DNA from: Nitrospira sp.
GTDB lineage: Bacteria > Nitrospirota > Nitrospiria > Nitrospirales > Nitrospiraceae
Assembly (NCBI GenBank): GCA_024998565.1
Contig: JACOEM010000003.1
Coordinates: forward strand, 1 to 64,000
DNA: 64,000 nucleotides
Direction: 5' to 3'
The notes below the pieces were generated by a model, which saw only the letters and a program-made list of their open reading frames with translations, had not been told where the DNA came from and ran no database searches. How positions within the stretch are numbered: position 1 is the stretch's first letter; the number at the start of each line of letters is the position of its first letter. Positions 6,560 to 27,896 of the stretch are shown piece by piece. The position numbers and the translations under genes are program-made.

Positions 6560-9500
6560 TCAGCCAGCGGAATCAGGTTTTTCGGCGAGAGCGACCAGAA
6601 TTTGTCCGGAGAACGTACGCACGAGTCTTGCCGGAGTCGAGGTGACTTGGGCGAGGGCGGCGCTCAGGCCATCTTCCTGGAATGCATGTAGTTGACCGAC
6701 GCGCAGGGCGACGCAACACTGAGCCATACGATTGAGCGCAAGGCGGGCGTCTCCCGAGAAGGCATCGACGCCGAGTTCCTGCAAGGATGAGCGATAGGGG
6801 AGGGCCATATCTGCCAAGGGGGTGACGGCGCTCACGATGAGTTTTCCGCCCGGGCGAAGCACACGGAACAGTTCACGAAGCGTGTGGAGAGGAGATCGTG
6901 AAAAGCTGAGGGAGAGATTCGCCACGATGCGATCGAATGAATGGTCCGCGAAGGGAAGCGTTTCTACGGATCGACCCAGTACCCACTGCTGACTGACGGG
7001 TGTCGGCCCGGAGATGCGTCCGGAGAACAGCCGATCCACGTGCTTCAAGGCGTCATTCGTCGCGTCCTGCGCGGCATGCAGCGCAGCCACTGAGAAGTCT
7101 ACCCCGATGTATCGAAGCGGTTGATTCTGGTTCCAGGTTTGAGCGCGGAGACGGTAGGAAAGGTTCAAGAGCAGGAGTCTGGCGAATGAATGAATGCCGC
7201 ATCCGACATCGAGCAGGGTCAGGCCTCCATCGAGCGGTTGGAGGAGTTGATACAGTTGATCGATATATTGCCAATGCGCGGGGAGTTCATCCAAACTTCG
7301 TGTGAGATCGGTCTGTGCGGCCCAGAGGCGTTCGCGGCCTGCCGTTCCGGCGGCATATTTGATGCGGAGTCGATCGTGTTCGAATCGTGCACGGGTGGAG
7401 GTGATGCGTGAGATCTCCATGAGCGCCGGGACGGTGGGAGAGGGGAAGCGATCCGAAGTAAGGCAGAGCTGCGCGATCCGCTGCCAGCTTGCGAGCAGTG
7501 CCGTTGGTGCGACAGCATCGACAGGGAGAAGGGGAGTTTGTAGCATGACGCGACTGCCTCTTGATCCGAGCCGATGCAGCGCGTCCTCCACGAGTGCCGG
7601 TGCTGGAGAGGGAGTCGGGTATTCAGCGGCGCCTGGGCCGGTCATCAAAAAAACCACGTCGGTCCCGCAATGCGAAAGGTCCTCCTGAAGCGAGGTGTTC
7701 TCTGTATATCGACCGGCCACGGCGTCGGCCACGAAATGATCGATGTCGAGTGGAATCCCCATGAGGTTGCCGAGCCCGAGCCGGGTTCCGGCCAGATGTT
7801 CACCTACCAGATCCCGCTGGTGAAGGCTCGTCAGGCAATTTCGGATGTCGAGTGCCGGGTTGAGCAGTAAGAGCCGGTTGACTCGCCTGTGCCAGTCTTG
7901 GCGCCGCAATGCGATGCGGCCGAGCAGGTCCGGTGCCAGCAACGTGAGGGGGATTCCGGGGAACTCTTTCTGCACAAAGCTCAGCACGGTATCGAGGTCG
8001 TCTTCCAGGGATGTGAGCGTGGTTTGTGTGGGGTCGCCCTCGCTCAGCCCGATGTGACGGCTGTGATCATAACGCAGGACTTGCAGCCCGCATGCAGCCA
8101 GTGTGTAGGCGAGGGCGACATAGGCCTGCTGAGTCGTCCCATACCCCGGACAGAGCAGCACCAGCGGGTACTGTGGGCCGTCTGTGCGTGTCGGAACATC
8201 CTGACACAGCGCAATCGTGATGCCCTCACGATTGCGTAGATTGTGTGCAACGGTGAGGAGCGGCGAGTCTGCCAGCGGTTCGGCGAGTTCTTGCGAAGTA
8301 CCGATCCGCGATGAGATGAGAGCCCGCAGTTTCTGTTCCTGTGCGGGCGATAAACCCTCAAAGCGCACTCCATAGCGGCGGATGCCTTCTGTCTGTGCGG
8401 GATTCAAGGTTGTCCTGGTCCGAGCGCGATCTGTCCAGACAATCCGAACTGGCCAAGGGTTTTCAGAACCCTCAGGCAAGGCGGCGCCGATTGACGAAGA
8501 GTTTGGCTCGAGGGGTGCCAGGTAAAGGATCTGCCGGCCAACAGGGAAGTCGTAGCCTCCCGGCACTTCGATGCAGGCCCCCTCCAGGCTCAGATTGACC
8601 GTCACTCCAAGCGGACGGGTTGGCGTGCCTGGTGAGCCGACCAGTCGAATCGGGCATGGGGCGTGTAGCCGTGAGGCCTCACGCCGTTCTGTCGTCGCTG
8701 TGATGGAGGGGAGAAGGGCGTCAGGGTTCTGTTCGGCGGGTGTGAAAAAAGGAAGGATCAATCCTTCGAACGTGACGATTGTTGAGCCGTCTTGCAGCCC
8801 ATCCAGAAGTGAGCGGAGGACATTGCGGTCGCGCTCGCCGCTCGATGAAAAGGAAATCACAAAATTCTTGATGGCAGTGAGCGGCAGGTCCGTAAGTGCG
8901 GCCGGTCGTTCATGTACGACGCCCTGAAGTTCCAGGAAGCTCACGGGTGTTTTGATCACCACGTAGGCTGGCTGTAGATGAATGGAGGCCGAAAGATCAG
9001 GGATGGTGAGGAGGGCGCCGCCCGTACTCATGTTTCGTAAGACGCCTCGAAGAGTTGTGCCTCCGACGGATAGTTGCACGGGGAGCGCGAACAACTTGCG
9101 TTCTGAACGCCGTCGGTCGGGTCGTTGTCCTGCGACGGGCTGCGATTGGCCTCGAACGAGGTCGGGTGTGGCGGGCGGGGCTGCGGGCGATTCAGCGCCT
9201 TCGTCCGCGAACAGATGAGCGGAAACAGGAATTCGTACTGTGATGGTCAGGCCGCTGTCTGCCGCATGTCCAATTTCGATGGCGCCACCATGTGCCTGGA
9301 CAATGTGGTGAGCGCGAAAGAATTGCTCGGGAGAAATACGTAAATCTGGCTGTTCGCCGACGGGAGCAGCGGTGCGTCCGGCGCTTTCCTTGATGGTGAA
9401 GCTTACATACTCGCGCGAGGTGGTCGAATGCAGCGGAAGCGTTCTTGAAACGAGTGAAGGAGCGTCTCCGGCCGGCGGCGCCGTCTGTAGCAGAAGATGA

Positions 9501-18385: not shown

Positions 18386-19165
18386 ATGTTGTTAGAAGGG
18401 AAAAAGGGTCTGATCATCGGTGTGGCCAACAAGCACAGCATCGCCTGGGCGATCGCGCAGGCTGCGGCGCGAGAAGGCGCGCAGATGCTGTTCAGTTATC
18501 AGAACGAACGGTTGCGTGAAAACGTCGAAGAGTTGGTGCAGACCCTGCCCGGCGCGTCGGCTTGCGTGTGCGATGTCGGAGACGACAGTCAGATCGATGC
18601 GATGATGAAACAGGCCGCTGAGAAGCTGGGGCGGTTGGACTTTCTGGTGCATTCCCTGGCCTTTGCTCCGCGGGAAGAGCTCACCGGAGAATTCGTGAAT
18701 ACCACCCGTCAAGGATTTGCGACGGCCCTGGATGTCAGCGCCTACTCCCTCGTGGCCGTCACGCGGGCGGCGATGCCGCTGATGACGGAAGGCGGATCGG
18801 TCGTGACGCTGACCTATCTCGGCAGCGAGCGGGTGGTGCCGCATTACAATGTCATGGGTGTGGCCAAGGCGGCGCTTGAAGCGACGGTCCGGTATCTGGC
18901 GCACGATCTGGGGCCGAAGAACATCCGGGTCAATGCCGTCTCCGCCGGGCCGATCAAGACATTGGCGGCGCGTGGCGTGTCCGGTATCAGTAAGATGGTC
19001 GATCACCATCGCGCATTCGCTCCGCTACGGCGGGCGACGGAGCAGGGCGAGGTCGGCGATACGGCCTTGTTCCTCGTGAGTCCGTTGGGGCGCGGTATCA
19101 CCGGAGAGGTGATCTACGTCGATGGGGGGTATCATATTCTGGGGTCATTGGCCTCTGTCGACTAG
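18386..19165 (+). CDS. fabI: Enoyl-[acyl-carrier-protein] reductase (NADH)
   Basis: This enzyme catalyses the last reduction of each fatty acid elongation cycle. The 259-residue SDR-fold protein opens with the FabI nucleotide loop GLIIGVANKHSIAWAIA, has HSLAFAPREEL, and carries the FabI-type Tyr-x6-Lys pair (Y154 and K161 in YNVMGVAK). The substrate-loop sequence VSAGPIKTLAARGVSG and the C-terminus GEVIYVDGGYHILG are standard. The frame is open upstream to 18206, but ATG 18386 has AGGAG at the right distance and gives family length. Confidence 0.96.
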   Translation: MLLEGKKGLIIGVANKHSIAWAIAQAAAREGAQMLFSYQNERLRENVEELVQTLPGASACVCDVGDDSQIDAMMKQAAEKLGRLDFLVHSLAFAPREELTGEFVNTTRQGFATALDVSAYSLVAVTRAAMPLMTEGGSVVTLTYLGSERVVPHYNVMGVAKAALEATVRYLAHDLGPKNIRVNAVSAGPIKTLAARGVSGISKMVDHHRAFAPLRRATEQGEVGDTALFLVSPLGRGITGEVIYVDGGYHILGSLASVD

Positions 19166-19226
19166 GGGGCCAGGGGGTCTGTTCACACGATCAGCGTCCT
19201 GCGTTTTGCCTGATCAGGCCGACATC

Positions 19227-20132
19227 GTGACGTGGCACAGCCGGGCCATTCCGGGCTTGTTCTTCTTCCTATTCTTCATCTTCTTCATTACTCGTCTCAC
19301 TATTGGTTCTGTCATCCCGTCCTTCTCTGCGGAGCTCTCCGATCGGGAGGAGGACGGGCTGCTGGGCCCTGTCCAGTCCGTCGAAACCAGAGAGAGCCTG
19401 CTGGTGCAAACCGATCGCTATGATCCACGCGGTCGTCTCATCGAGCGCATTCAGGGAGGCAGGGAGACGTCTCAGGGTTTGTGGCCGTTGCGATTCGTCT
19501 ATAGTTATGACCAGACAGACAGGCGGATTGCCGAGGCGGTGCACGATGCGCGAGGCGAGCTCGTGAAGGAAACCCGCTCGGTCTATGATGATCGCGGGAA
19601 TCGCTCCGCCGAACTCTCGGCCTGGGGCGACGGCACGTTTGAGAACGTCTCCCTGTATGAATACGACGAAGCACATCGGCCGATCAGAGGGCTTCACTTC
19701 AATGGCGTGCAAGTGATCAATCGAAATCTCTATGCCTTCGACAGTGCCGGACGGCTGGTGCGTGAGCGGTTCGAACGAAACTATCACTACAATGCAGCCG
19801 GGACTCAGGTTGGCATGACCGATCAGTTCGATACCGGGTATGAAGTCGCCATCGTCTATGACGAGCAGGGGTATGTTCGCGAGAAAGTGGTGTCCGATCT
19901 CCTGAGCCGACCACAGGGTCGCTCGGAGTTTCGGTACGACGAACAGGGCAATCAGAACGAAGAACGCATCTTCAATGCCAAGGGACAGGCCACGGATCGA
20001 AAAGTCTACCGCTACGAATACGACGCCGTGGGGAATTGGATCAAGGAAACGTTGCAGTGGTGGGAGGTGGCTGATGGCCGCGAGACGCTCAAACAATCTT
20101 CCGTCAGAGAGCGCAGCATTGCGTACTACTAA
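19227..20132 (+). CDS. Exported YD-repeat protein
   Basis: About 301 residues: one hydrophobic segment (IPGLFFFLFFIFFITRLTIG), then a run of RHS/YD-type units such as RYDPRGRLIERIQ, YSYDQTDRRIAEAV, YEYDEAHRPIRG, YAFDSAGRLVRE, IVYDEQGYVREK, FRYDEQGNQNEE and YRYEYDAVGNWIKE. Such repeats form extended beta filaments and often bind carbohydrate. It lacks an RHS core and toxin tip, so it is not a polymorphic toxin. GTG 19227 was preferred to the upstream ATG 19122, which overlaps fabI; no strong ribosome site is seen. Confidence 0.7.
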   Translation: MTWHSRAIPGLFFFLFFIFFITRLTIGSVIPSFSAELSDREEDGLLGPVQSVETRESLLVQTDRYDPRGRLIERIQGGRETSQGLWPLRFVYSYDQTDRRIAEAVHDARGELVKETRSVYDDRGNRSAELSAWGDGTFENVSLYEYDEAHRPIRGLHFNGVQVINRNLYAFDSAGRLVRERFERNYHYNAAGTQVGMTDQFDTGYEVAIVYDEQGYVREKVVSDLLSRPQGRSEFRYDEQGNQNEERIFNAKGQATDRKVYRYEYDAVGNWIKETLQWWEVADGRETLKQSSVRERSIAYY

Positions 20133-20214
20133 TTCCCTTTACCATTCTTCGCGTATGCGATGACCTAGAACGATTCCGGTGATGCGCCGATGGGCGAAAG
20201 GGCGGAGGAACATT

Positions 20215-21681
20215 GTGAACCGATTGTGCCTGCTGACTGCTCTCGTGACCATCATGTCGGCCTGGACAGTCGGCGAAACCGAGGTCCGGGCCGGGGGTGA
20301 CCTTGCGCCGCTTCCGACGCGCGGGCCACTCCGGGTGTCCAGCGACAATCCCCGATACTTTGCGGACTCCGAGAATCGGATCGTCTACCTGACGGGATCC
20401 CATTCCTGGGAAAACTTTCAGGATGTCACGGCCGCGTTCAACTATCAGGCGTATCTCGATCGGTTGACGGCCCGGCACCATAACTTCATTCGCATGTGGG
20501 TGGGTGAATCGACCCGTTCCGATGCAGGGTGGCTCCTGCAGCCTCCCGCTCAGGACAATCCGGTGACCCCGCTTCCGTATCTCCGAACCGGTCCGGGTGT
20601 GGCGTCGGACGGTGGGCCGCGCCTGGATCTTACCCGATTCAATCCAGTCTATTTTGAGCGACTCAGGGCGAGAGTGCAGCAAGCCGGGCAACGTGGGTAC
20701 TATGTCTCCGTCATGCTGTTTCAAGGCTTCAGTGTGGTGGAACCGCATGCGTGGAAGGCGCATCCGTTGAATGGCAACAACAATGTGAACGGCATCGGCG
20801 GGGACGAGGATCGGGATGGGGTCGGGAAAGAAGTGCATCGGTCGCCATCGGCGTGGGTGTTGAGCGCGCAAGAGGCCTATGTGGGGCGGGTGCTGGATAC
20901 GCTGCGCGATATGGATAATGTGTTGTATGAGGTGGTGAACGAGGCCATTCCGGAGTCCGCGTCGTGGCAATACCATCTCATTCGTTTCATTCAACAGTAT
21001 GAGCGTGAACATCAGTATGTGGCGCACCCTGTCGGGATGACGTTTTTTCAACTCGGCGAGTTCGGCGGCGGCGACAATACGGCCCTGTTCGATAGCCCGG
21101 CTGACTGGATCTCCCCCGGCGGTTATACGAAATATGCCCGCAATCCTCCCACAGCCGACGGCCGCAAGGTCATCCTTCTCGACACCGATCACATTCACGG
21201 GATCGGAGGTGATCAGGACTTTGTGTGGGAAAGCTTCTTTCGCGGGTACAATCCCATCTACATGGATCCGTTGGATGCTCCGCACGAGTTGACCATCGGG
21301 GAGCCGGTGCGGAACGAACCCCAGCATGAGCGTGCACGGGTCGCCATGGGTGAGGCTCGTCGTTGGGCAACAACACTGGATCTGCGGCGTGCCATTCCAC
21401 GCGGAGATGTGGCTTCGACCGGTTATTGTCTTGCAGGGCCGGGGCGGGAGTACCTTGTCTCTATCCCTGCCGGTAGCGCTTCAGCTCCATCAACCGACGA
21501 CAACGGTGCCCGCCCCGTGACGCTCAACCTCAACGGCGTGGTGGGCTCGTTCACGGTGGAATGGATCGATGTGGAGGCACGAAGGGCAATCTTGGTTGAA
21601 CCCATTCAAGGAGAGGGGGAAAGACTGTTCACCGTGCCGTTTCCAGGTGCGACACTGCTCCATCTCAAAACACGGTCGTAG
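20215..21681 (+). CDS. Secreted glycoside-hydrolase-like (TIM barrel) protein
   Basis: About 488 residues. The signal peptide (LCLLTALVTIMSAW, cleavage near VRA) is followed by a DUF4038-like barrel: GPLRVSSDNPRYFADSENRIVYLTGSHSWEN, NFIRMWVGE, ERLRARVQQAGQRGYYVSVMLF and DNVLYEVVNEA, where the Glu after Asn is the usual acid/base position. A C-terminal beta domain carries GSFTVEWIDVEARR. A polysaccharide target is likely but cannot be named. GTG 20215 is favoured because GGAGG lies six bases upstream and the signal peptide then starts cleanly; the frame is open to ATG 20179. Confidence 0.75.
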   Translation: MNRLCLLTALVTIMSAWTVGETEVRAGGDLAPLPTRGPLRVSSDNPRYFADSENRIVYLTGSHSWENFQDVTAAFNYQAYLDRLTARHHNFIRMWVGESTRSDAGWLLQPPAQDNPVTPLPYLRTGPGVASDGGPRLDLTRFNPVYFERLRARVQQAGQRGYYVSVMLFQGFSVVEPHAWKAHPLNGNNNVNGIGGDEDRDGVGKEVHRSPSAWVLSAQEAYVGRVLDTLRDMDNVLYEVVNEAIPESASWQYHLIRFIQQYEREHQYVAHPVGMTFFQLGEFGGGDNTALFDSPADWISPGGYTKYARNPPTADGRKVILLDTDHIHGIGGDQDFVWESFFRGYNPIYMDPLDAPHELTIGEPVRNEPQHERARVAMGEARRWATTLDLRRAIPRGDVASTGYCLAGPGREYLVSIPAGSASAPSTDDNGARPVTLNLNGVVGSFTVEWIDVEARRAILVEPIQGEGERLFTVPFPGATLLHLKTRS

Positions 21682-21842: not shown

Positions 21843-21960
21843 TCGTCCCCTCCAACCTCATGCCCATTCGACTCCCCCGTACTTCGGCGAATTCCTGCAC
21901 GTTTACTTTTTCGCCCCTATTGCGTCTAACCAACAGACGATCAATGAAGGGGGGATGCCG

Positions 21961-22398
21961 ATGCCACAATCAAAAACCATGTCTCTGTTGTTGGCCCTGG
22001 TCCTGGGGCTGTCAGGCTGTACGACGACGTTGATTCATGACGAGATGAAGCGGCCTGTGGCGACTGAACGACACTGCGCGGGCAGTGAATGGGCGGACAA
22101 TTCGTCGGTGGCTGTGCTGCCTCTTCCTGTGGTGGCCTTTTTTGTCCCGCATTTTGATCTCAATAAAGTCAGCAGTGAGCCCTATCTCGGCCGTTGCGGT
22201 GACAGTACCAGGGTGGTCAATCGAGAGGTTTCGGTCAGTCGAGCAGCCTGCATTCCGGCCGGGCTCACCCGGATTGTGACCTTGGGTGTCTGGCAATGGT
22301 GTCCCTCGCACGTGTCCTGGACGGCGGATATCCTGCCCGAGGGGCCGAAATCCACCGGAGCACTGCGCGATGTGTCTGCAGGGGGCCACAGTTTGTAA
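21961..22398 (+). CDS. Lipoprotein, possibly Bor-like
   Basis: A 145-residue lipoprotein with signal MSLLLALVLGLSGC (lipobox LSGC). The mature part has four further Cys and ends with a pattern reminiscent of the Bor/Iss family: CG..RVVNREVSVS..ACIPAG followed by TLGVWQWCPSHVSW. The similarity is loose. ATG 21961 was chosen from two neighbouring ATGs because AAGGGGGG then lies six bases upstream. It opens the envelope island. Confidence 0.65.
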   Translation: MPQSKTMSLLLALVLGLSGCTTTLIHDEMKRPVATERHCAGSEWADNSSVAVLPLPVVAFFVPHFDLNKVSSEPYLGRCGDSTRVVNREVSVSRAACIPAGLTRIVTLGVWQWCPSHVSWTADILPEGPKSTGALRDVSAGGHSL

Positions 22399-22455
22399 AT
22401 TACATGGTGCGAAGGGGCGGGAGTGCGTCGTAACACAATCATAAGGAGTCGGCGT

Positions 22456-23043
22456 ATGAGTATGGCGAAACACATGGTGAGAGTCGCGGTGCTGGTGGGG
22501 ATGGTTGCGGGGGGAGTTGGCCAGGCATATGTGCTCGAAGACGGGGAGATGCTGAGGGGTAGTCAAGATCGAAGCGGTGGCGACAATCGCGGCCCAGGCT
22601 CGTTGAACAGCGGACCCGGCTCGATCAACAGTGGATCGGGAAGAGAAGACAACCATCGCCGTCGGGGCTGGGATGACGTCCGGGTGGCACAGGTAGGAGA
22701 TGTGCGACAGGAAGACCGACGGGCCGACCGCCGGGAAGACCGGCTACTGGACCGCCGAGAAGATCGAAGAGAAGATCGCCAATTGGATCGAAGAGAAGAT
22801 CGACGTGAGGATCGGCAGGTAGATCGACGGGAAGATCGTCGGGCCAATAGCGGTGGAGAACTTCGAGGGCTTGATCGGGCTGATCACGTTGCCGATGACC
22901 ATGGCCGGCAGGGACGCGACAATGCCCGTGCGGTTCAGATGGAGCGGGGAAATCGTGCCGAGCGAGTCGAACGGCCTCAGCGCCCCGAGCGCCCGCAACG
23001 ACCGGAACGTCCCGAGAGACCGGAACGGTCGGGGCGAAATTAG
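22456..23043 (+). CDS. Exported Asp/Arg/Glu-repeat protein
   Basis: About 195 residues: a signal peptide (VRVAVLVGMVAGGVGQAYV), a Gly/Ser/Asn linker, then a strongly periodic charged region of DRRE/DRQ units (about residues 82-132) and a terminal Pro-Glu-Arg tract built from RPERPQ and RPERPE units. It is likely extended or intrinsically disordered, and outside the cytoplasm. AAGGAG precedes ATG 22456. A second protein of the same style lies on the opposite strand at the other edge of the island. Function unknown. Confidence 0.7.
   Translation: MSMAKHMVRVAVLVGMVAGGVGQAYVLEDGEMLRGSQDRSGGDNRGPGSLNSGPGSINSGSGREDNHRRRGWDDVRVAQVGDVRQEDRRADRREDRLLDRREDRREDRQLDRREDRREDRQVDRREDRRANSGGELRGLDRADHVADDHGRQGRDNARAVQMERGNRAERVERPQRPERPQRPERPERPERSGRN
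22701..22850 (+). repeat. In-frame tandem repeat encoding DRRE units
   Basis: Imperfect short units such as GAAGATCGA and GACCGCCGG recur in frame inside the charged exported protein. Codon use varies between units, so the peptide rather than the DNA appears to be conserved. Confidence 0.6.
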
Positions 23044-23257
23044 CTGCCTGTCTCGGGGGACTCCGCTCGCATGGTGATCCGACCGAGTGTGGAGCGGTGC
23101 GGGCAAGTGGCCGCATCGCTCTACGCATCTTCCCTGCCTACCAACGGCTTGAAGGATGGTGAGAGATCGGGTAGGTTCTGGCCATCAGGCCCCACGCGAG
23201 AATACGTAATTTGAAACAAGTCGGCGCATGACGCAGGCAGAAGTAGGAGGCATCGGG

Positions 23258-24187
23258 ATGGGTGTGTGGAGCAGTCGAGTGATAGGGGTCGTGTTGTGCC
23301 TCCTCGGAATTGCGACCATCGGAGGTGCAGCAGAGAAGACAGATCAAGGCCCCCAGTCGCCCGATCGGAATTGGCAGATAGGATTCACGCCCAGTTATTC
23401 CACTGGAAATTTCGGGACCAGTTCGACCAGCAGCTTTTTGTATGCACCGTTATCCTTGCGCCGTCTGTTCAAGGATGGTGATATTACAGTCGTGGTTCCG
23501 TTTGTCACCTCGACCACTGATGGTCGGACGACCATCGTCGGCGGGACTGCCACGCGGGTTGATGACAATCCGAAGAGCGGGTCCAGTGGAAGTGGAAGCG
23601 GCACGAATGACGATGGCGGGTGCAGCGGAAAGGGACAGTCCGGGTCCGGGAAGGACCGGGTCTGCGGTCTCACGACTCGCGCGCCGGGGCAGAAGGTGAC
23701 GACATCCGGTCTCGGCGATGTGATCATCAAAGGCCGGTATTATGTTGTTGAGGAAGGGGACGCGCTGCCGCTGATTGCCCTGACGGCACGGGTCAAGCTG
23801 CCTACGGCCAATGAGCAACAGGGTTTGGGGACCGGCGCATTGGACTACGGCTTCGGCGTCGAGATGTCCAAGATGTTCGGGGAGTACTGGATTGCATTCT
23901 TGGATGCCGGGTACAACATCATCGGCGATCCGGACGGACTCCAATTCCAGAATCAGCATTGGTACGATGTGGGGACGGGATACTTTGTGACCAGGGATCT
24001 CCTGGCCAGTGTCTATTTCGAGGAGTACCGCGCCATCGTGCCGGGATTTGTGAATGCGCGCGACTTTTTCTTCGCGATGAACTATACGGTTTCATCCGCA
24101 TGGCGACTGAACAGCGGCGTGACCGTCGGTGTCTCCAATGGAGCTCCGGACTATGCGTTTTCCGTCGGCGCCAGTTACCGCTTCTGA
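23258..24187 (+). CDS. Outer-membrane beta-barrel protein
   Basis: About 309 residues with a signal peptide (VIGVVLCLLGIATIGGAAE), then alternating strands ending in a C-terminal Phe (FSVGASYRF), the usual signal for the BAM machinery. Motifs such as WQIGFTPSYSTGNFG, GLGDVIIKGRYYVV and ALTARVKLPTA resemble the transporter-type barrels often called MetA-pathway proteins. A Ser/Gly/Asp loop with paired Cys sits near residues 105-145. AGGAGG lies seven bases before ATG 23258. Substrate unknown. Confidence 0.8.
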   Translation: MGVWSSRVIGVVLCLLGIATIGGAAEKTDQGPQSPDRNWQIGFTPSYSTGNFGTSSTSSFLYAPLSLRRLFKDGDITVVVPFVTSTTDGRTTIVGGTATRVDDNPKSGSSGSGSGTNDDGGCSGKGQSGSGKDRVCGLTTRAPGQKVTTSGLGDVIIKGRYYVVEEGDALPLIALTARVKLPTANEQQGLGTGALDYGFGVEMSKMFGEYWIAFLDAGYNIIGDPDGLQFQNQHWYDVGTGYFVTRDLLASVYFEEYRAIVPGFVNARDFFFAMNYTVSSAWRLNSGVTVGVSNGAPDYAFSVGASYRF

Positions 24188-24274
24188 GCGGGGTTGGTGC
24201 CTGTTTACGAATTGCCTGGCGGCTCGTCATAGTGGGTAGCAGGACTCAGGGGGTGGCGGCCGGGCTGACACGAA

Positions 24275-24874
24275 ATGGTGGACATGCCGGTTGAGCCACA
24301 TGCGGGGGGCGATGAAGCGAGGCTCATTGCCCGAAGTCAGACGCAGGATCACGAAGCCTTCGGGCAACTCGTCGATCGGTATGCCGGGGTGATTGTGAAC
24401 CTGGCCTACCGGATGGTGGGGAATCGTGCCGATGCAGAGGACCTGGCCCAAGATGCGTTTCTGGCGGCGTTCAAGGCGCTGCCGACGTTTCGAGCCGATT
24501 CGAAGTTTTCGACCTGGCTCTATCGGATCGCCGCGAACAAGTGCAAGGACTGGCTACGCGCGAAGCATCCCATTCCGGTCGAGCTTGATGGAGATGAGAC
24601 GGTGGCGGCTCAAGTGGTCGAGAATCATACGCCGGAGCGGCTCCTGTCTCAGCAGCAGGTGGCGCGGCACTTGGATGGAGCCATCCAGCGTCTTCCTCCG
24701 CTGTATCGAGAGGCCTTTGTGTTGAAACATGTCGAAGGGCTGAGTTACGAAGAGATGCAGGAGTTGCTCGGCGTCAATGCCGATACCTTGAAAATGCGGG
24801 TCTATAAAGGGCGCGTTCAGTTGAGTCGTGAGTTGTCGGAGTGGAATAACAGGCAGTCCCCGGTGTCGAGGTGA
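24275..24874 (+). CDS. ECF RNA polymerase sigma factor (RpoE-like)
   Basis: A 199-residue ECF sigma factor. Region 2 spans about 25-95 (FGQLVDRYAGVIVNLAYRMVGNRADAEDLAQDAFLAAFKALPTF, then FSTWLYRIAANKCKDWLR). Region 4 spans about 135-190 (LPPLYREAFVLKHVEGLSYEEMQELLGVNADTLKMRVYKGR). It should direct transcription of an envelope or carbohydrate response and be held inactive by the anti-sigma gene that begins three bases after its stop. Confidence 0.95.
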   Translation: MVDMPVEPHAGGDEARLIARSQTQDHEAFGQLVDRYAGVIVNLAYRMVGNRADAEDLAQDAFLAAFKALPTFRADSKFSTWLYRIAANKCKDWLRAKHPIPVELDGDETVAAQVVENHTPERLLSQQQVARHLDGAIQRLPPLYREAFVLKHVEGLSYEEMQELLGVNADTLKMRVYKGRVQLSRELSEWNNRQSPVSR

Positions 24875-24877
24875 AGC

Positions 24878-25564
24878 ATGGATGATCAAGACCTGTTGAT
24901 TCAACGGTTTCTCGATCAGGATCTGACGCCGGACGAGCGCGTCCAGTTTCTTGAACAGGTGGATGCCGATCCGAGATTGCGTCGTGAGTGGTTGAATCTT
25001 GAGATGGTGGTTGCGGAGGCCGGGCGCCTCCCGCGGATCGCCCCGTCGAAGCAATTCACGGCCCGCGTGTTAGCGACACTCGATGCCGAGCCGAAGGGGA
25101 GCCTCGATCGGCTTGTGGCGCTCGTGACCGCGCCTCGCACGTTGCAATGGAATCTGGGCGGCGCCATGGTGGCGGCCTCTGTGGCGATTCTGGCGGTGGC
25201 GGGATTGTTGCGGTTGGTGCCTGAGCGGATCGTTGAGGTGCCGATCACCGGCCAATCGGCGCAAATGGTGTCGTTCGAGCAGGGCCAGGCGCCGACTACC
25301 TACGTACGACTGGTGCTTGTGCAGCCGGGGGCGCAGTCCGTCTCGGTCGCCGGTGATTTCAACGGCTGGAACCCGAGCCGCACGAGCATGGAACGGTCGG
25401 ACGGCGGAGTGTGGACGACGACGATTCGATTGAAGCCGGGGCGGTATCAGTACATGTTCGTCATCGACGGCAAACAATGGCTGGCGGATCCGCTCGCGAC
25501 CGAAGATGCGGGTGACGGGTTCGGGTCCCAGAATGCGGTGCTGGATGTCGGCACGACCCTCTAG
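24878..25564 (+). CDS. Membrane anti-sigma factor with a CBM48-like domain
   Basis: 228 residues in three parts. A cytoplasmic N-terminal helical anti-sigma domain (QDLLIQRFLDQDLTPDERVQFLEQV; no zinc HxxxCxxC motif) is followed by one membrane segment (about 92-112, MVAASVAILAVAGLL). Outside lies an E-set/CBM48-type domain (about 138-225: VSVAGDFNGWNPSRTSM, GVWTTTIRLKPGRYQYMFVIDGKQWLADP). That domain is the glycogen-binding type found in branching enzymes and AMPK beta. It suggests that the sigma factor is controlled by a polysaccharide or glycan outside the cytoplasm. The stop codon TAG overlaps the first bases of a MITE. Confidence 0.88.
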   Translation: MDDQDLLIQRFLDQDLTPDERVQFLEQVDADPRLRREWLNLEMVVAEAGRLPRIAPSKQFTARVLATLDAEPKGSLDRLVALVTAPRTLQWNLGGAMVAASVAILAVAGLLRLVPERIVEVPITGQSAQMVSFEQGQAPTTYVRLVLVQPGAQSVSVAGDFNGWNPSRTSMERSDGGVWTTTIRLKPGRYQYMFVIDGKQWLADPLATEDAGDGFGSQNAVLDVGTTL

Positions 25565-25740
25565 CCCGGATTATTCATGAATGCCGTCGCGAGGCGTTCG
25601 AGACCGAAGCCCGCCGGGGCTTCTCGCAAGTGAGGCTGACGCAGGCGTACTTGCAGTCCGTCGAGGAGGCCGAACGAGAAAAGCCACGCCGGGTGAGAGA
25701 ATCGGACGACGGAGCAGGTATTCATGAATAGTCCGGGCTA
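25562..25740. mobile_element. 179-bp MITE, family A, copy 1
   Basis: The ends are inverted repeats of about 21 bp (TAGCCCGGATTATTCATGAA at the left, its complement with one change at the right). The interior has a GAAGCCC/GGGCTTC hairpin. There is no coding capacity for a transposase. A second copy of equal length occurs in the window and differs at about a dozen positions by eye. The TA at each outer edge fits TA-target insertion as in the IS630/Tc1 group (inference). Its first three bases form the stop codon of the anti-sigma gene. Confidence 0.85.
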
Positions 25741-25794
25741 GCGACCTGTTCCATACGCTTGCATCACTCTCAGCGCTTCGGTACTCTACGTACG

Positions 25795-26154
25795 ATGCGG
25801 ATTGTGATGCGGACCATTCTGAGTCTGACCGTTCTGATCTGGCTCTCAGCTTGTGCGGCGACACACATACCGGAATTGCCCAAGTCTGTCTCAGGCGGAG
25901 TGCGGTTTTCGGTGTCGGTGCCGACGGCAGAGTCGGTGGCGATCGTCGGATCATTCAATGGATGGTCGCCTACGGCGCATGTGATGACCCGGGTGGGATC
26001 GAACGGATTCTGGTCGGCGGTGGTCCCATTGTCGGAGGGGGAACATGCGTTCATGTATCTGGTCGATGGAACAACGTGGGTGGTGCCTCCGGCAGCGGAA
26101 GATTTTGTGACGGACGGTTTCGGGAACACCAACGGTGTGGTGATAGTCCCATAG
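25795..26154 (+). CDS. CBM48-like lipoprotein
   Basis: About 119 residues: lipoprotein signal (TILSLTVLIWLSAC, lipobox LSAC) and a single E-set/CBM48-type domain (AESVAIVGSFNGWSPTAHVM, GFWSAVVPLSEGEHAFMYLVDGTTWVVPP). It closely echoes the extracytoplasmic domain of the anti-sigma factor, so the two may recognise the same ligand or each other. A later in-frame ATG (25807) is possible. It is separated from the anti-sigma gene by the MITE. Confidence 0.8.
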   Translation: MRIVMRTILSLTVLIWLSACAATHIPELPKSVSGGVRFSVSVPTAESVAIVGSFNGWSPTAHVMTRVGSNGFWSAVVPLSEGEHAFMYLVDGTTWVVPPAAEDFVTDGFGNTNGVVIVP

Positions 26155-26164
26155 GGATGGTCTG

Positions 26165-27031
26165 ATGCGAATCCCGGTCAAGGGCATGATTCTAGCGGCG
26201 GTGTGTCTCAGCGCAGTCGATCCGGCCTGGGCGGATTCGATCTCGATCCAGGACCGTGATGAAATCGCGAGGCTGCGATCGGCGCGTGGGTTCGCAGCAG
26301 AAGAGATGAGCCCGTTGCTCGAACAGGTGAACAAGGCCGGAGAACGAGGCCTTCCCGTTGAGCCGCTGGCGAATAAGGTGAAAGAAGGATTGGCCAAAGG
26401 GGTCGACCCCAAGCGCATCGATCCGGTCCTGCGGCAAATGGTCACGCATTTTGAGTCGGCGCAGGAGGTGCTGCGAGAGGCCGGCACGCGCGGGGTGGCC
26501 GAAGGGAATCGACGGGTTGCCCTCGAAACCCTGGCGGAAGCCTTTTCACGTGGCGCCACGCCCGAAGAAGTGCGGGAGCTCACGCGCCTGTCGCAGGATG
26601 GAAAGCAGAAGGTAACGCAAGAATCGTTGGCGGCGGGAGCCAAGAGTCTGGCGATGATGAAGGAAGGAAAGATTGCCTCGAAAGAAGGCGCGGCCTTGGT
26701 CGGCGAAGGGATGCGCCAAGGGTACAAGCCGTCGGAGTTGCTCGACCTAAGCCGCGAAATCAAACGGCGCGGGGGTGAGTTTCAGAGCGGTCGTGCCAGC
26801 ATCCAGACGTTGCGTGAACAAGTGCGTCGTGGCGAACGGGGAGATCGACTGTTTCGAAATGAGCATGGCGATTCCGGCGGCGGCGATCATGGTGACCGCG
26901 GAGGAAATGCCGATCATGGGGAGCGCATAAGAGACGATCGCGGGAGCGGCGGCGGAGACCGTGGCGGTGGTTCTGATCGTGGAGGGCGTCCCGAGCGAGG
27001 CGGGGGCGGACACGGCGGTCGGGATCACTGA
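26165..27031 (+). CDS. Exported helical protein with Gly/Asp/Arg-rich tail
   Basis: 288 residues: signal peptide (MILAAVCLSAVDPAWA), a helical body (about 30-215) of repeated amphipathic segments (ARLRSARGFAAEEMSPLLEQ, EGLAKGVDPKRIDPVLRQM), and a low-complexity tail of GGGDHGDRGG- and GGGSDRGGRP-type units. It lies ten bases after the CBM48 lipoprotein gene and is followed by a clear terminator, so it probably closes the sigma-factor operon. No known family recognised. Confidence 0.7.
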   Translation: MRIPVKGMILAAVCLSAVDPAWADSISIQDRDEIARLRSARGFAAEEMSPLLEQVNKAGERGLPVEPLANKVKEGLAKGVDPKRIDPVLRQMVTHFESAQEVLREAGTRGVAEGNRRVALETLAEAFSRGATPEEVRELTRLSQDGKQKVTQESLAAGAKSLAMMKEGKIASKEGAALVGEGMRQGYKPSELLDLSREIKRRGGEFQSGRASIQTLREQVRRGERGDRLFRNEHGDSGGGDHGDRGGNADHGERIRDDRGSGGGDRGGGSDRGGRPERGGGGHGGRDH

Positions 27032-27059
27032 CAACGCATCGAATGAAAGTGGATAGGTA

Positions 27060-27093
27060 AAGGGCTGCTCCTGATGGAGTGGCCCTTCTTATT
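27060..27093 (+). terminator. Rho-independent-like terminator
   Basis: The arms AAGGGC-TG-CTCC and GGAG-TG-GCCCTT fold around TGAT, with CTTATT after the stem. It lies 29 bases after the helical exported protein gene. Confidence 0.75.
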
Positions 27094-27189
27094 AGTGGCC
27101 GTTTGAGGTCTTGTTCCGAGGTCGAGCGTCGCAGCTCTCGGGAGGAACCTCGGGACGAGTTGCCTCGCGGTGTGTCTGAGACGCATAAG

Positions 27190-27223
27190 AAAACGGCGCC
27201 AGGGAGAGGCCCTGACGCCGTTT
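27190..27223 (-). terminator. Strong terminator hairpin for the convergent Asp/Arg-repeat gene
   Basis: The arms AAACGGCG-C-CAGGG and CCCTG-A-CGCCGTTT form a stem of about 13 bp. On the minus strand it ends in TTTTCTTA. The A/T-flanked stem could also work in the plus direction. Confidence 0.8.
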
Positions 27224-27241
27224 GTGAGTGGGGGGTGAGTT

Positions 27242-27547
27242 TTAACGGAAGCGGGCTCCACGATCGGCGCGGCGGTCTTCTTGACGCACATGCTGCCGGT
27301 CCAGCTGGTGATCCACCCGGCGATCCTGCTGTCGATCCAGTTGCCGATCCTGCTGTCGATCAGCTCGTCGATCCTGTTGTCTGTCTTCCCGGCGATCATT
27401 TTGCCGGTCTTGCTGCCGGTCGGCGCGGCGATTTTCCTGCCGAATGTCGAGTTGCGCGAGTGCGATCGACGGGATCACTGCCGGTGCCGTGACGGCTACA
27501 ACCAGGCCGGCGATCAATCCTGCTTTCAGCATCGTGTGATTCATCAT
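27242..27547 (-). CDS. Small exported Asp/Arg/Gln-repeat protein
   Basis: 101 residues: signal peptide (MLKAGLIAGLVVAVTAPAVIPSIALA) followed almost entirely by DRQQDRR/ADRQQDRQ-type units. It is the second such protein in the island and faces the first. AAAGGAGGAG precedes the double ATG. A periplasmic or surface polyampholyte is the likely product; function unknown. Confidence 0.7.
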   Translation of the reverse strand: MMNHTMLKAGLIAGLVVAVTAPAVIPSIALAQLDIRQENRRADRQQDRQNDRREDRQQDRRADRQQDRQLDRQQDRRVDHQLDRQHVRQEDRRADRGARFR

Positions 27548-27896
27548 GACTCCTCCTTTTGTGAGAGAGTGTGGTGCTGGTGCGATCGGTGGTTGTTTTT
27601 GGAGGATGCCGCTCCGGCTCTCTCATCCGACGGCACGCTCCAATCAACCTGTCATAGAGTAAGACGGCGGCCCGGAGAAAAGGTAAACGGATGCTACGTA
27701 GTGACTCCGGAGAGATGAATTCTGTGTCAGGGGTACGACAGCGATGGTCGGGCAGGTGCCGCAGGCTGACACAGGCGAGAGAGGGTGCGGGGTGAAACCG
27801 ACAGAGAACGAGTGAACGAGGCAGCGGGGCGGTGCTGCCGGCAGAACAGCGAACGAAGTACAGCGATATTGATCGGGTCGGAGTGAGGCCGACGAT
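27548..27896. other. 349-base gap, nothing assigned
   Basis: This lies between the start of the Asp/Arg-repeat gene and the stop of cysA, both on the minus strand. I see only short imperfect inverted repeats and no convincing gene. It should hold the promoter of the repeat-protein gene, but I could not single out one pair of boxes. Confidence 0.4.

Follow-up and report, generated by a model that had tools for sequence, protein, structure and literature searches.

Gene content of the island

The first 64,000 nucleotides of contig JACOEM010000003.1 (our contig C3, positions 1-64000, hereafter the window) belong to a 4.13-Mb genome of Nitrospira sp. and contain a compact island encoding an extracytoplasmic function (ECF) sigma factor, a predicted membrane-bound anti-sigma factor and several exported or surface proteins (Table 1). 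A preliminary description of this stretch had listed these genes, and every one of them lies where it was placed. The anti-sigma gene in particular was called correctly, but the carbohydrate-binding module of family 48 (CBM48) at the C-terminal end of its product was overlooked.

Table 1. Genes, predicted promoters and an inserted element of the island, in window coordinates
Feature	Position	Strand	Remarks
P1, predicted sigma promoter	21901..21926	+	29 bp before small lipoprotein; same site at orthologue in 26 loci
Small lipoprotein, lipobox LSGC	21955..22398	+	No Pfam match
DR1, exported Arg/Asp-rich repeat protein	22456..23043	+	195 aa: 45 R, 23 D
Outer-membrane beta-barrel, FapF/COG4313-like fold	23228..24187	+	PF13557 E=4e-8
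P2, predicted autoregulatory promoter	24203..24228	+	46 bp before sigma; strict site in 42/51 loci
ECF sigma factor, 199 aa	24275..24874	+	Sigma70_r2 E=1e-22, Sigma70_r4_2 E=5e-14
Anti-sigma factor: N-terminal cytoplasmic part, one transmembrane helix, C-terminal periplasmic CBM48	24878..25564	+	
MITE-like inserted repeat, outside conserved unit	25562..25748	.	
CBM48 lipoprotein, lipobox LSAC	25795..26154	+	CBM48 E=7e-11
Exported alpha-solenoid protein, Gly/Asp/Arg-rich tail	26165..27031	+	Signal peptide and alpha-helical repeat
DR2, exported Asp/Arg/Gln-repeat protein	27242..27547	-	101 aa: 22 R, 15 Q, 14 D
P3, predicted sigma promoter	27663..27688	-	116 bp before DR2; same site in 11 loci

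Profile searches match the sigma factor to Sigma70 regions 2 and 4 only, with SigW and RpoE as its nearest named models. The anti-sigma factor has a single hydrophobic helix (approximately residues 92-115) and a C-terminal AMPK1_CBM/CBM48 domain (E=5e-12 / 3e-11; best stretch approximately residues 144-225), which scores 46.2 against a curated cut-off of 26.8. Its match to model NF052375 is weak (29 bits, with a model cut-off of 100), and it contains no cysteine and therefore lacks the zinc-binding anti-sigma motif. The second CBM48 protein of the island, the lipoprotein, scores 42.8 against a curated cut-off of 22.4. When 26 sequences of each protein were aligned, W164, W201, F215 and N219 of the anti-sigma factor and W57, W95, F109 and N113 of the lipoprotein proved invariant, and we take these positions to align with glycan-contacting positions of AMPK. 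Both domains appear to keep residues matching known glycan contacts, which makes a glycan-reading role plausible.

The beta-barrel protein scores 34 bits against PF13557 (cut-off 22) and is modeled as a barrel with a mean predicted local distance difference test score (pLDDT) of 69. It thus resembles the FapF and COG4313 barrels in both family and fold: its best solved match is FapF, by sequence (E=0.0014) and by fold (E=2e-14), and a COG4313 channel comes next by fold. FapF carries an N-terminal periplasmic coiled coil (PMC5557850), whereas in the model of the island barrel the signal peptide helix is followed by the first strand at residue 49, with no such coil between them. Membership in a Fap-type secretion system was considered and rejected, as the coiled coil is missing, no other fap genes are recognized in the island and the score against the NCBIfam FapF equivalog, 22 bits, lies far below the cut-off of 700. 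The solenoid protein is predicted with good confidence to be an alpha-helical repeat (mean pLDDT 80.9); a fold search among solved structures returned nothing better than E=1e-3, with designed proteins as the top matches, and a profile search of solved structures matched no natural protein.

An element of approximately 187 bp that resembles a miniature inverted-repeat transposable element (MITE), with inverted ends AGCCCGGA..TATTCATGAATAGTCCGGGCTA, is inserted between the anti-sigma and CBM48 lipoprotein genes. It has about 40 matches in the window genome, 53 in genome G015 and 33 in the sister genome G023, and sister loci have a 57-bp gap at the same position.

Conservation of the unit and its predicted promoter

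To describe how widely the island is kept, we use a scan with one genome per species, which yielded 80 loci; 50 of these together with the window make up 51 Nitrospira-type loci with the anti-sigma gene. Gene presence was determined by tblastn of the window proteins, and denominators count the loci long enough to show the gene. The anti-sigma gene is accompanied by the sigma gene in 51/51 loci, the CBM48 lipoprotein in 50/50, the solenoid in 47/47 and the barrel in 45/45, less regularly by DR1 (39/43) and the small lipoprotein (29/36), and by DR2 in 13/45, which is kept in the window's clade and some others. The order barrel-sigma-anti-sigma-CBM48-solenoid is unbroken in every Nitrospiraceae locus of sufficient length (45-51 loci), and the closest named loci belong to Nitrospira metagenome-assembled genomes (MAGs) and “Candidatus Nitrospira defluvii.” This clustering exceeds chance adjacency. 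Carriage is patchy, as 5/29 genomes of the genus and 61/175 of the family possess the unit. The flanks differ as well: the neighbors are fabI/RHS and cysA in the window's clade; in 32 other loci, the unit lies next to a conserved 880-aa DHH/CBS/polymerase-type gene.

Gene content varies around this core. A DUF5666 protein lies between the small lipoprotein and DR1 in 31/38 loci of other genera and is missing in the window's clade; where present, this member of the unit is a multidomain exported protein (e.g., L043:5851-7458 and its orthologues). On the 5' side of the island in the window, an exported apiosidase-like/DUF6298 protein is encoded at 20179-21681 with no sigma site in front of it; it is 70% identical to its counterpart in sister genome G013, and N. 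defluvii matches it over a short stretch only. An RHS/YD-repeat protein (19122-20132) lies between fabI and this gene.

Profiles of the four central proteins were used to find more distant loci. A quartet of sigma factor, CBM48 anti-sigma factor, CBM48 protein and solenoid, whole or partial and in varied order, occurs in other Nitrospirota and in MAGs of other phyla. The order CBM48-sigma-anti-sigma-solenoid is found in 6 of the 7 loci examined in other Nitrospirota (L184 and L186-L190), and in the seventh, L185, the contig breaks off at the expected solenoid start. MAG loci L084, L086 and L088 match all four proteins, and L081-L083 match only the sigma factor, the CBM48 anti-sigma factor and the solenoid. 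In L088, a DUF4382 protein (7926-8948) precedes sigma. Two further MAG loci (L080:6594-7846 and L091:4411-5964) have frame-broken or truncated sigma/anti-sigma genes, reflecting either assembly error or decay.

Phylogenetic footprinting upstream of sigma in the 51 loci reveals a single conserved block, GTTTAC-N16-CGTC, which has the -35/-10 form of an ECF promoter. This first motif test drew only on sites before sigma. With a spacer of 15-18 allowed, the 64-kb window contains exactly three matches, all with N16 and one ahead of each island unit. Consensus-pattern scanning of the whole genome gives 15 matches at spacer 15-18, compared with 16 for the reversed control; matches with N16 number 6, of which 3 are in the island, where 0.004 would be expected in 5.8 kb (Poisson P ~1e-8). 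A matrix built from 95 sites extends the motif to YGTTTAC-N16-CGTCWWA, whose only perfect matches in the 4.13-Mb genome are the three island sites, a uniqueness that is partly circular as the motif was learned partly from the same sites. A near-match with one mismatch at C3:103314 is also present in G023 and G013, and no convincing exported product lies downstream.

Across the 51 loci (839 kb), the strict pattern occurs 104 times, and 81 of these matches lie directly before module genes: the 42, 26 and 11 given in Table 1 for sigma, the small lipoprotein and DR2, together with 2 before DR1. The most divergent family member, G161, has sites before both the small lipoprotein and sigma. Nine loci have no strict site before sigma, including that of G013 (L033), which is one base off. 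GTTTAC-N16-CGTC was not found before the distant quartets of other Nitrospirota, and their sigmas may therefore use other promoters. We predict that the island forms a self-contained regulon that regulates its own sigma gene, and we regard this prediction as well supported.

Exopolysaccharide loci in relatives

Two related genera have a uronate/alginate-type exopolysaccharide locus that likewise has the predicted sigma promoter in front of it. Genomes G147, G166 and G270 have further sigma sites before a response regulator and before the start of this locus, which encodes GT28 and GT4 proteins, a heparinase II/III, a phosphotransferase, an ATP-binding cassette (ABC) exporter and an Alginate_exp porin. 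Several genomes of another genus have the locus adjoining the island. Its exporter has a close orthologue (E<1e-200) in 20/175 family genomes, and all 20 also carry the anti-sigma gene, which is found in 61/175 overall. The hypergeometric P value of this co-occurrence is 6e-11 overall, and 1e-5 and 0.006 within the two genera, but the counts are confounded by relatedness and the P values ignore kinship. In 11/20 genomes, a strict site is found no more than 30 kb upstream of the exporter, on its contig and its strand; approximately 0.02 per genome would be expected.

Other recurring members of the predicted regulon in relatives are a small-lipoprotein paralogue, an outer-membrane OMP_b-brl protein, a small exported protein beyond DR2 and the lipoprotein that starts the polysaccharide locus. 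The paralogue is encoded elsewhere in relatives' genomes (L175, L194 and L195) with its own perfect sigma site approximately 30 bp upstream. In G166 (L177, contig C11), a perfect site lies 228 bp ahead of a gene for a long, repeat-rich, adhesin-like surface protein. The window genome does not contain the polysaccharide locus and has only generic ABC exporters (E ~1e-115). With no perfect site outside the island either, we rejected the exopolysaccharide locus as an output of the window genome itself; since the locus is missing, the predicted output here is the protein set only.

A putative glycan-reading sigma switch

We consider it probable that the island forms a self-contained ECF regulon with autoregulation, whose products build or maintain some of the cell-surface matrix under the control of a glycan-reading anti-sigma switch. 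Sequence evidence supports the conservation of the genes, the three promoter sites, the architecture of the anti-sigma factor and the conserved CBM48 site residues and, for relatives, the promoter of the exopolysaccharide locus and its co-occurrence with the anti-sigma gene. The rest of the scheme we infer. The anti-sigma factor would bind sigma and keep it at the inner membrane while its CBM48 domain reaches into the periplasm. There, the domain would sense what state a glycan is in, probably aided by two periplasmic partners encoded in the same putative transcript, the CBM48 lipoprotein and the alpha-solenoid, much as MucB and RseB serve MucA and RseA. A change in that state would presumably release sigma, which would then transcribe three putative operons: lipoprotein-DR1-barrel from P1, sigma-anti-sigma-CBM48 lipoprotein-solenoid from P2 and DR2 from P3. 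The regulon products would be exported surface proteins with a presumed matrix function, and in relatives, an island-type sigma would also drive the uronate/alginate-type exopolysaccharide locus.

A glycan is the likeliest signal because two co-conserved CBM48 proteins retain intact site residues and because relatives link the switch to a polysaccharide. The lipoprotein and the solenoid are the best MucB/RseB-like candidates because, of all the parts, they accompany sigma and anti-sigma across the greatest evolutionary distances. The preliminary description had named a missing conserved neighborhood and a sigma regulon unrelated to these genes as outcomes that would refute it, and it withstands both: the neighborhood recurs across Nitrospiraceae loci, and the predicted promoter precedes exactly these units. 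Its proposal of a glycan-responsive surface system is plausible from the CBM48 residues and the relatives' exopolysaccharide promoter, although the window genome itself has no such locus and any glycan ligand is hypothetical.

Several observations weigh against a glycan-reading switch, in addition to the absent locus, the partly circular motif and the kinship among genomes noted above. The anti-sigma factor has a methionine at the site of what is presumably the glycogen-contacting lysine of AMPK, K126. The relatives' polysaccharide locus looks uronic-acid based rather than alpha-glucan based, so its product need not be the CBM48 ligand. The sigma promoter is not strict in the sisters G013 and G023. 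Finally, CBM48 domains can serve as structural modules that bind no glycan. The island may instead be a general envelope-stress regulon, in which CBM48 would be a structural or protein-protein module, the signal would be envelope damage or protein misfolding in the envelope, as with RpoE, and the surface proteins would act in repair. The nearest named sigma models, SigW and RpoE, fit this account, as do the non-binding role open to CBM48 domains and the hypothetical nature of any glycan ligand. We nevertheless find it unlikely: the predicted regulon of the window genome is tiny and lacks chaperone, protease and assembly-factor genes, the two CBM48 proteins, both with intact site residues, are retained as a pair, and the regulon of relatives adds an exopolysaccharide locus.

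Rather improbable, in our judgment, is a protein fiber or coat exporter, in which the FapF-like barrel would secrete DR1, DR2 or the solenoid as matrix subunits at a time set by the sigma switch. FapF is the best solved match of the barrel by both sequence and fold, and the barrel stands alongside exported repeat proteins in all 45 loci that could show it; however, it lacks the coiled coil, scores far too low on the FapF model and has a COG4313 channel as its next fold match, and the repeat proteins carry far more charge than is typical of amyloid subunits. That the neighborhood reflects descent and slow rearrangement alone, with no joint function and unused promoter matches, is very improbable: a single family does supply most loci, and conservation within some genera extends to flanking genes, but the unit stays whole in two or more flanking contexts and with anti-sigma identity down to ~53-60%, is patchy between species and has exact promoter spacing at separate units.

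The putative glycan-reading switch can be compared with three described systems. As in RpoE-RseA-RseB, a sigma factor, a predicted membrane anti-sigma factor and a candidate periplasmic accessory gene share one predicted operon. RseB senses lipid/lipopolysaccharide signals and is not a CBM, and the RpoE-RseA-RseB regulon differs in content from that of the island. AlgU-MucA-MucB of Pseudomonas comprises an ECF sigma factor, an anti-sigma factor and a periplasmic modulator (PMC7400510), and the island likewise has an ECF sigma factor, a predicted single-pass anti-sigma factor and candidate periplasmic partners. The relatives' regulon extends this likeness to an alginate-type exopolysaccharide locus with an Alginate_exp porin. 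However, the island anti-sigma factor has its own CBM48 domain, no MucB/RseB family match was found among the island products scanned, which include the CBM48 lipoprotein and alpha-solenoid instead, and the window genome's regulon has no polysaccharide locus. In SigI-RsgI of Clostridium thermocellum, surface-acting genes are also under the control of a membrane anti-sigma factor that bears a carbohydrate-binding module outside the cytoplasm (PMC12203970). RsgI has a self-cleaving periplasmic domain, CBM3, CBM42 or PA14 sensors and cellulosome-gene outputs in a Gram-positive cell plan (PMC12203970), and its sigma and anti-sigma factors are of other families; the island sigma matches ECF models, and profile searches returned no RsgI match for the island anti-sigma factor. 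On our best reading, the switch would work like AlgU-MucA-MucB combined with an RsgI-like CBM sensor, as a member of neither system. We found no description of a CBM48-tailed anti-sigma factor or of a Nitrospira ECF system like this one in the literature searched, which left most subscription papers and supplementary files out of reach.

Nitrospira are key nitrite oxidizers that live in flocs and biofilms, and to our knowledge, little is known about how they control their matrix. The present analysis supplies a specific and testable sigma regulon, with a promoter motif and predicted members, and the switch is also present in the cultured N. defluvii and N. moscoviensis. CBM48 is known mainly from glycogen/starch enzymes and AMPK; our data suggest its reuse, in several phyla, as the external sensing part of a transcriptional switch. 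More tentatively, sigma, the CBM48 anti-sigma factor, the CBM48 lipoprotein and the solenoid may form a cross-phylum periplasmic glycan-sensing cassette, a receptor of polysaccharide state that would set matrix production, including that of exopolysaccharide in many Nitrospira relatives.

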